Part shown: one piece after another, positions 19,741-19,912 of the stretch
Numbering within the stretch: position 1 is the stretch's first letter
How the letters are laid out: every line of letters starts with the position of its first letter
Source of the DNA: Diaporthe sp. PMI_573
Taxonomy: Eukaryota > Ascomycota > Sordariomycetes > Diaporthales > Diaporthaceae
Length of the DNA stretch: 64,000 nucleotides
Assembly: GCA_021399435.1 (NCBI GenBank)
Contig: JAJTUP010000008.1
Span: 930,001 to 994,000, forward strand
Direction of reading: 5' to 3'
Position numbers and translations under genes: made by a program
The notes under the pieces: model-generated
The model's database searches: none
Told to the model about the DNA's origin: nothing
Seen by the model: only the letters and a program-made list of their open reading frames with translations

Positions 19741-19748
19741 AAAAAAAA
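19741..19748 (-). terminator. RNA polymerase III terminator (T8)
   Basis: Eight T residues on the minus strand, starting 15 nt after the tRNA discriminator base: the normal Pol III stop signal. Confidence 0.85.
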
Positions 19749-19763
19749 GATATCCAAATTGGA

Positions 19764-19912
19764 GGGTCTGGCCGGGGATTGAACCCGGGACTGGGTGATT
19801 GTTAGTTATGCTGCAAATTTTGCAAGTGGATCTGTTCGAAATGACTTACCCTCGCGCAGTGAAGCTTCAGGGTGTTCCCTAAGCGCGAATCATACCACTA
19901 GACCACCAGACC
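19764..19912 (-). tRNA. tRNA-Pro(AGG): tRNA-Pro(AGG) with two introns
   Basis: Minus strand. Exons are 19912-19877, 19858-19850 and 19790-19764, giving a 72-nt tRNA. All stems pair: acceptor GGTCTGG/CCAGACC (7 bp), D stem GTC/GAT, anticodon stem CGCGC/GCGCG, T stem CCGGG/CCCGG. The anticodon loop is TTAGGGT (anticodon AGG) and the discriminator is C73, as in cytoplasmic eukaryotic tRNA-Pro. Box A (TGGTCTAGTGG) and a box-B-type GGTTCAATCCC are intact, and a T8 terminator follows. The first intron (19876-19859, 18 nt) is at the canonical site after position 37 and contains CCCT complementary to the anticodon. A second insertion of 59 nt (19849-19791) splits the variable loop and has spliceosomal-intron signals. 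Confidence 0.9.
19791..19849 (-). other. 59-nt spliceosomal-type intron inside the tRNA variable loop
   Basis: Begins GTAAGT, has a branch-type CTAAC 10 nt before the 3' end region, and ends CCCAG, with the length of a normal intron in this genome. Removing exactly GT...AG gives variable loop AGGTC followed by the perfect T stem. GGGT at the 5' junction could pair with ACCC at the 3' junction. Confidence 0.8.

Follow-up and report, generated by a model that had tools for sequence, protein, structure and literature searches.

The window, a stretch of 64,000 nucleotides of Diaporthe sp. PMI_573, carries on its minus strand a tRNA-Pro(AGG) gene that is interrupted at two places. The features of this gene are the following:

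19764..19912, minus strand: whole tRNA-Pro(AGG) gene as far as the discriminator base, with its two introns (sequence reading and ARAGORN)
19850..19912, minus strand: exon 1, tRNA positions 1-46, with the canonical intron lying within it
19895..19905, minus strand: TGGTCTAGTGG, box A of the Pol III internal promoter by its motif
19878..19880, minus strand: anticodon AGG (ARAGORN)
19859..19876, minus strand: canonical anticodon-loop intron of 18 nt, TSEN type (ARAGORN, i(37,18))
19791..19849, minus strand: spliceosomal-type GT-AG intron of 59 nt in the variable loop, at 46/47 (equivalent cut at 45/46)
19844..19849, minus strand: GTAAGT, 5′ splice-site-like, start of the insert
19801..19805, minus strand: CTAAC, branch-site-like, its second A 11 nt from the final intron base
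19791..19793, minus strand: CAG, 3′ splice-site-like, end of the insert
19764..19790, minus strand: exon 2, with the T arm, the 3′ acceptor strand and the discriminator C
19775..19785, minus strand: GGTTCAATCCC, box B by its motif, lying whole within exon 2
19741..19748, minus strand: T8 run downstream of the gene, a Pol III terminator by its position

The sequence-only reading had placed these boundaries and motifs on the minus strand, and its coordinates proved correct to the base. It had also proposed that deleting the stretch from GT to AG gives back an ordinary tRNA-Pro. Indeed, ARAGORN reported no tRNA when the 59 nt were left in, and a tRNA-Pro(AGG) with its canonical intron when they were removed; neither ARAGORN nor Rfam found a tRNA in the intact window sequence. 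The same product is obtained from two cuts one base apart, GT..AG or GG..CA. When the bases of the insert were shuffled singly, splice signals recurred at the ends in 1 of 300,000 shuffles and a looser pattern in 2 of 200,000, both patterns having been written after the inserts had been seen, so that the tests were not blind. A plasmid collection searched for the sequence gave no match. Among the mRNA genes of the window, a GH7 gene has an intron of 57 nt (54199-54143) that reads GTAAGT..CTGAC..CAG and is backed by a Diaporthe protein alignment. The window is enriched in intron-like motifs: it has 14, the tRNA insert included, whereas 20 simulations gave 2.7 on average and never more than 6. 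Among named proteins, the nearest to two proteins of the window come from Diaporthe (86% and 93% identity), as fits a fungus of the Diaporthales; for the first of the two, a metagenome protein is nearer still (91%).

We searched the assembly to which the window belongs (83.7 Mb). At least nine of its tRNA genes, the window gene included, contain an extra GT-AG insert: two Pro(AGG), two Pro(UGG), two initiator Met, one Arg(CCG) and two Lys(CUU), which makes four amino acids. The inserts are 50 to 66 nt long and occupy six sites, with tRNA position numbers assigned by hand from the printed sequences: 23/24 in initiator Met, 26/27 in Arg, 46/47, 48/49 and 49/50 in Pro, and 53/54 in Lys. With the window gene and an ungapped tRNA-Pro motif as queries, seven tRNA-Pro genes were found in ten places (four AGG, two UGG and one CGG, anticodons read partly by eye). 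An insert of the form GTAAGT..CTAAC..CAG is present in both UGG genes and in two of the four AGG genes; the other two AGG genes and the single CGG gene are free of it. We then joined 17 tRNA genes from this genome into one query. With the best 40 of 55 candidates scored and 12 places read, it added the five remaining genes:

contigs C133 and C24: initiator Met genes, with an insert GTGAGT..CTAAC..CAG in the D arm
contig C169: Arg(CCG) gene, with an insert GTAAGG..CTAAT..TAG ahead of the anticodon stem
contigs C134 and C133: Lys(CUU) genes, with an insert GTAAGA..TTAAC..CAG at the boundary of T stem and T loop

Two more joined queries, one of them of yeast tRNAs and reaching Gly and His genes only, yielded no further interrupted gene, and neither did 19 more printed loci. 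Of the 97 distinct tRNA-like loci listed by these searches, nine carry a GT-AG insert away from the anticodon loop. The printed sequences of 79 loci were read, and the remaining 18 were seen as unbroken matches only. Among the 79 loci that were read, three being set aside (L016, L017 and L018), none has a clear insert outside the anticodon loop that is not of the GT-AG type. These counts are a lower bound, the census being one of best-scoring candidates in which several isoacceptors, Glu among them, were not identified. A genome search with RF00005 listed none of the nine interrupted genes among its best 63 of 2509 candidates. As for the loci set aside, L017 and L018 (C61:54685-54833 and C191:100827-100975) are near-identical tRNA-like genes of 149 nt with two box-B-like stretches and an ill-defined anticodon arm. 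L016 (C140:502911-503054) is tRNA-like and 144 nt long, with a long middle part that has no explanation and a long T run downstream.

In all nine genes, a GT..AG cut gives back the tRNA exons. It is the sole possible cut in three of them, and in the other six a second cut, shifted by one base and not of the GT..AG kind, is equivalent; among the Pro genes excision is unique in three of four, the window gene being the exception. The inserts begin with GTAAGT (four), GTGAGT (two), GTAAGA (two) or GTAAGG (one). The fungal consensus for the 5′ splice site is GTRAGT, which six inserts match fully and from which three depart at the sixth base. The branch motif is CTAAC in six inserts, TTAAC in two and CTAAT in one; in all nine, the last (C/T)TAA(C/T) has its A 9-12 nt upstream of the final intron base. 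The signals of the Arg(CCG) insert are weaker (GTAAGG, CTAAT, TAG). In single-base shuffles of each insert, its splice-signal pattern, loosened after all nine had been seen, recurred 0 to 3 times in 200,000. TTTT is absent from every insert, but with a chance probability of 0.23 this is not significant. The idea that the inserts are introner elements was tried and rejected: a whole interrupted gene used as query matched tRNA-Pro genes only, so that dispersed copies of the insert did not show up in this search, which skips very common words.

With the inserts in place, ARAGORN gave the expected tRNA for none of the nine genes (the initiator Met gene on C133 was named Val and the Arg gene Ile), and with the inserts removed it did so for eight. 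The ninth, the Lys(CUU) gene on C133, was then called Leu(caa), probably owing to a duplicated stretch in its canonical intron. This gene (L076, C133:618693-618871) carries there a duplicated CTTACTGAGCC, which repeats the anticodon region. A canonical anticodon-loop intron accompanies the insert in six of the nine genes, the four Pro and the two Lys, as recognised by ARAGORN in five and by eye in the Lys gene on C133. The proposal that a tRNA gene may hold an intron of spliceosomal type is supported by eight more genes with the same splice signals as the window gene.

Canonical tRNA introns of eukaryotes are of the TSEN type and lie at position 37/38. In the window gene it is the separate 18-nt intron that sits there, after base 37, while the inserts occupy six other sites; judged by their motifs, they bear the signals of the spliceosome and not the position of TSEN introns. 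They share their host genes with canonical introns, and differ from them by lying outside the anticodon loop and by having GT-AG ends and a branch motif. The inserts could instead be non-canonical introns like those of Cyanidioschyzon, nucleomorphs and Crenarchaeota, cut by TSEN and having GT-AG ends by coincidence. Such introns are indeed known from a red alga, nucleomorphs and archaea, and the archaeal positions given in the part of the source consulted include 25/26, 45/46 and 53/54 (PMC4090602), which coincide with some of the sites, or equivalent cuts, found here. The enzyme also seems to be available: two genes of the genome match the PF01974 endonuclease domain over the cut-off, and a third match falls below it, which suggests that TSEN subunits are encoded and that both splicing systems are likely present. 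What makes this explanation very unlikely is that GT..AG ends and a spaced branch motif recur in all nine inserts, and that the precursors folded, those of the four Pro genes, have no common predicted fold at their junctions (by eye). Strict bulge-helix-bulge structures were found at none of the four, and relaxed scores did not exceed those of shuffled inserts; the anticodon-loop introns of these genes, taken as control, had none either, so that this test does not separate the two kinds of intron. The GGGT/ACCC pairing that had been put forward as a means of bringing the junctions together is, by eye, confined to the window gene, which weakens that alternative. In both Pro(UGG) precursors (L012 and L013), an intron stretch ACCCxCUG is predicted to pair with the 3′ junction and the T stem (CAG/CGGGU). 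This pairing counts among the points against a spliceosomal reading.

Could these be dead gene copies, broken by insertions? Four of the isoacceptors concerned, Pro(AGG), initiator Met, Arg(CCG) and Lys(CUU), out of five in all, also have intron-free copies, and their interrupted copies could thus be silent; the genome also contains truncated tRNA-like copies (L065, L067 and L104-L106). The sequence-only reading had held that intron-free copies, together with decay of the interrupted one, would speak against its proposal. The copies exist, and the decay is not visible. Indeed, once spliced, the Pro(AGG) genes on C196 (the window gene) and C141 agree at all 71 nt, the intron-free gene on C136 carries the same sequence and the copy on C24 differs by one base (by eye). 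The two spliced Pro(UGG) sequences are identical to each other, both interrupted initiator Met genes equal the intron-free one at every base, and the three Lys exon blocks are those of four intron-free Lys copies. Two exon bases set the Arg(CCG) gene apart from its intron-free copy, a C changed to T and a G changed to A; as assigned by hand, they are the two partners of a single pair in the anticodon stem.

The inserts of paralogous Pro genes, by contrast with these exons, do not exceed partly shuffled controls in their similarity to each other: the AGG pair has 42 matches (controls: mean 38.9, maximum 45, 300 shuffles) and the UGG pair 35 (controls: mean 36.3, maximum 41, 300 shuffles), the two UGG inserts being similar in their first bases. 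The initiator Met pair and the Lys pair are still similar by eye. Conserved exons beside diverged Pro inserts are what one would predict for genes in which exons are put to use and introns discarded. Moreover, both Pro(UGG) genes are interrupted, and no intron-free one was found among the best-scoring candidates of two genome searches, the second with spliced Pro(UGG) as query; within this scope, Pro(UGG) appears to be the only affected isoacceptor that depends on removal of the insert. Together with the GT..AG cut common to all nine genes and the paired change in Arg(CCG), these observations weaken the dead-copy alternative, and we regard it as very unlikely.

Splicing by the spliceosome is normally coupled to Pol II. 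On this ground, the tRNAs might be embedded in Pol II transcripts and lose their introns there, the Pol III transcript remaining unspliced. The genes themselves argue for Pol III. In all nine, a run of at least four T begins 2-27 nt past the acceptor strand. Box A is present (the boxes were located for the window gene and read by eye in the others), and box B lies whole in an exon in seven of the nine genes (by eye). Both Lys inserts interrupt box B; there, the terminal AG of the intron together with TTCGACCCC forms a new AGTTCGACC, and with box B rebuilt in this way at the 3′ splice site, the promoter is probably retained in the unspliced gene. Box B is thus kept or rebuilt in all nine genes.

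A U6 snRNA gene of the genome (L034/L054, C138:750600-750950) is interrupted likewise. With exon limits set by comparison with U6, it has two introns, 52 and 64 nt long, that run from GT to AG and contain CTAAC. One intron splits the ACAGAGA box, and each holds a box-B-like AGTTCGATTCC. With T runs, box B and U6 all pointing the same way, we consider splicing confined to Pol II transcripts highly improbable. The genome also has partial or rearranged U6-like copies (L033 at C138:744998, L035 at C173:238167 and L036 at C134:24188). The copy on C173 keeps an intron GTGAGT..CTAAC..TAG, and its upstream DNA resembles, by eye, that of the copy on C138. Finally, the search of the genome for U6 scored highest on a divergent intron-free U6-like gene (L032, C35:1172277-1172375), which departs from U6 in segments that are conserved elsewhere and has a TATA-like stretch upstream.

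Altogether, the insert of the window gene, like the eight others, is very probably an intron of the major spliceosome that would be removed from a Pol III pre-tRNA. Pol III would transcribe the interrupted precursor and snRNPs would excise the insert as a lariat, while TSEN and tRNA ligase would separately take out the anticodon-loop intron. Six genes (four Pro and two Lys) would need both machines, and the two initiator Met genes and the Arg gene the spliceosome alone. It is also probable, with slightly less assurance, that the spliceosome serves as a tRNA-maturation enzyme of this nuclear genome, acting on nine or more tRNA genes, among them two for initiator Met and every Pro(UGG) gene found, with introns gained at six positions and TSEN and spliceosome acting on one precursor in six genes. 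This reading is drawn from the sequence of the genes.

One of the closest known cases is U6 of Schizosaccharomyces pombe, a published interrupted U6 gene with an mRNA-type intron (PMC10581693, as far as the consulted part of this source goes). The likeness lies in an mRNA-type intron within a Pol III-type RNA gene, and a U6 gene, here with two introns, is interrupted in the present genome too. Here, the host is a tRNA, the transcript of six genes would be handled by two splicing machines, and the positions of the inserts vary among paralogues. According to the consulted parts of PMC4090602 and PMC3978253, non-canonical tRNA introns occur in archaea, in nucleomorphs and in a red alga, while tRNA genes of other eukaryotes with short insertions in their arms have been regarded as pseudogenes. 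The introns of Cyanidioschyzon merolae, nucleomorphs and Crenarchaeota described there resemble those found here in lying outside the anticodon loop and in that some genes have two or more. They are ascribed in these parts to the splicing endonuclease, often acting through a bulge-helix-bulge, many nucleomorph ones having no defined motif. In contrast, the inserts found here share splice-site and branch signals. A 2026 review, in the part consulted, lists tRNA splicing as independent of the spliceosome (PMC13149111). That such genes may escape notice is suggested by the failure of ARAGORN on all nine, and by the description of tRNAscan-SE 2.0, whose search for non-canonical introns is, in the part consulted, described for the archaeal model (PMC8450103).

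In the searched part of the PMC literature, outside which most subscription journals and all preprints lie, we recognised, by titles and abstract openings, no earlier report that places a spliceosomal intron within a tRNA gene of a nuclear genome. To our knowledge, none was known before, and what would be new here is the presence of spliceosomal introns in this class of host genes.

The introns of tRNAs and those of mRNAs are regarded as two distinct worlds, each with machines of its own. If the inserts are spliced, the spliceosome makes tRNAs in this fungus. Short Pol III transcripts whose exons measure about 20 nt would then be within its reach, and the supply of tRNAs would be tied to splicing capacity. 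The introns of these tRNA genes may also serve as a natural test of intron gain in non-coding genes.
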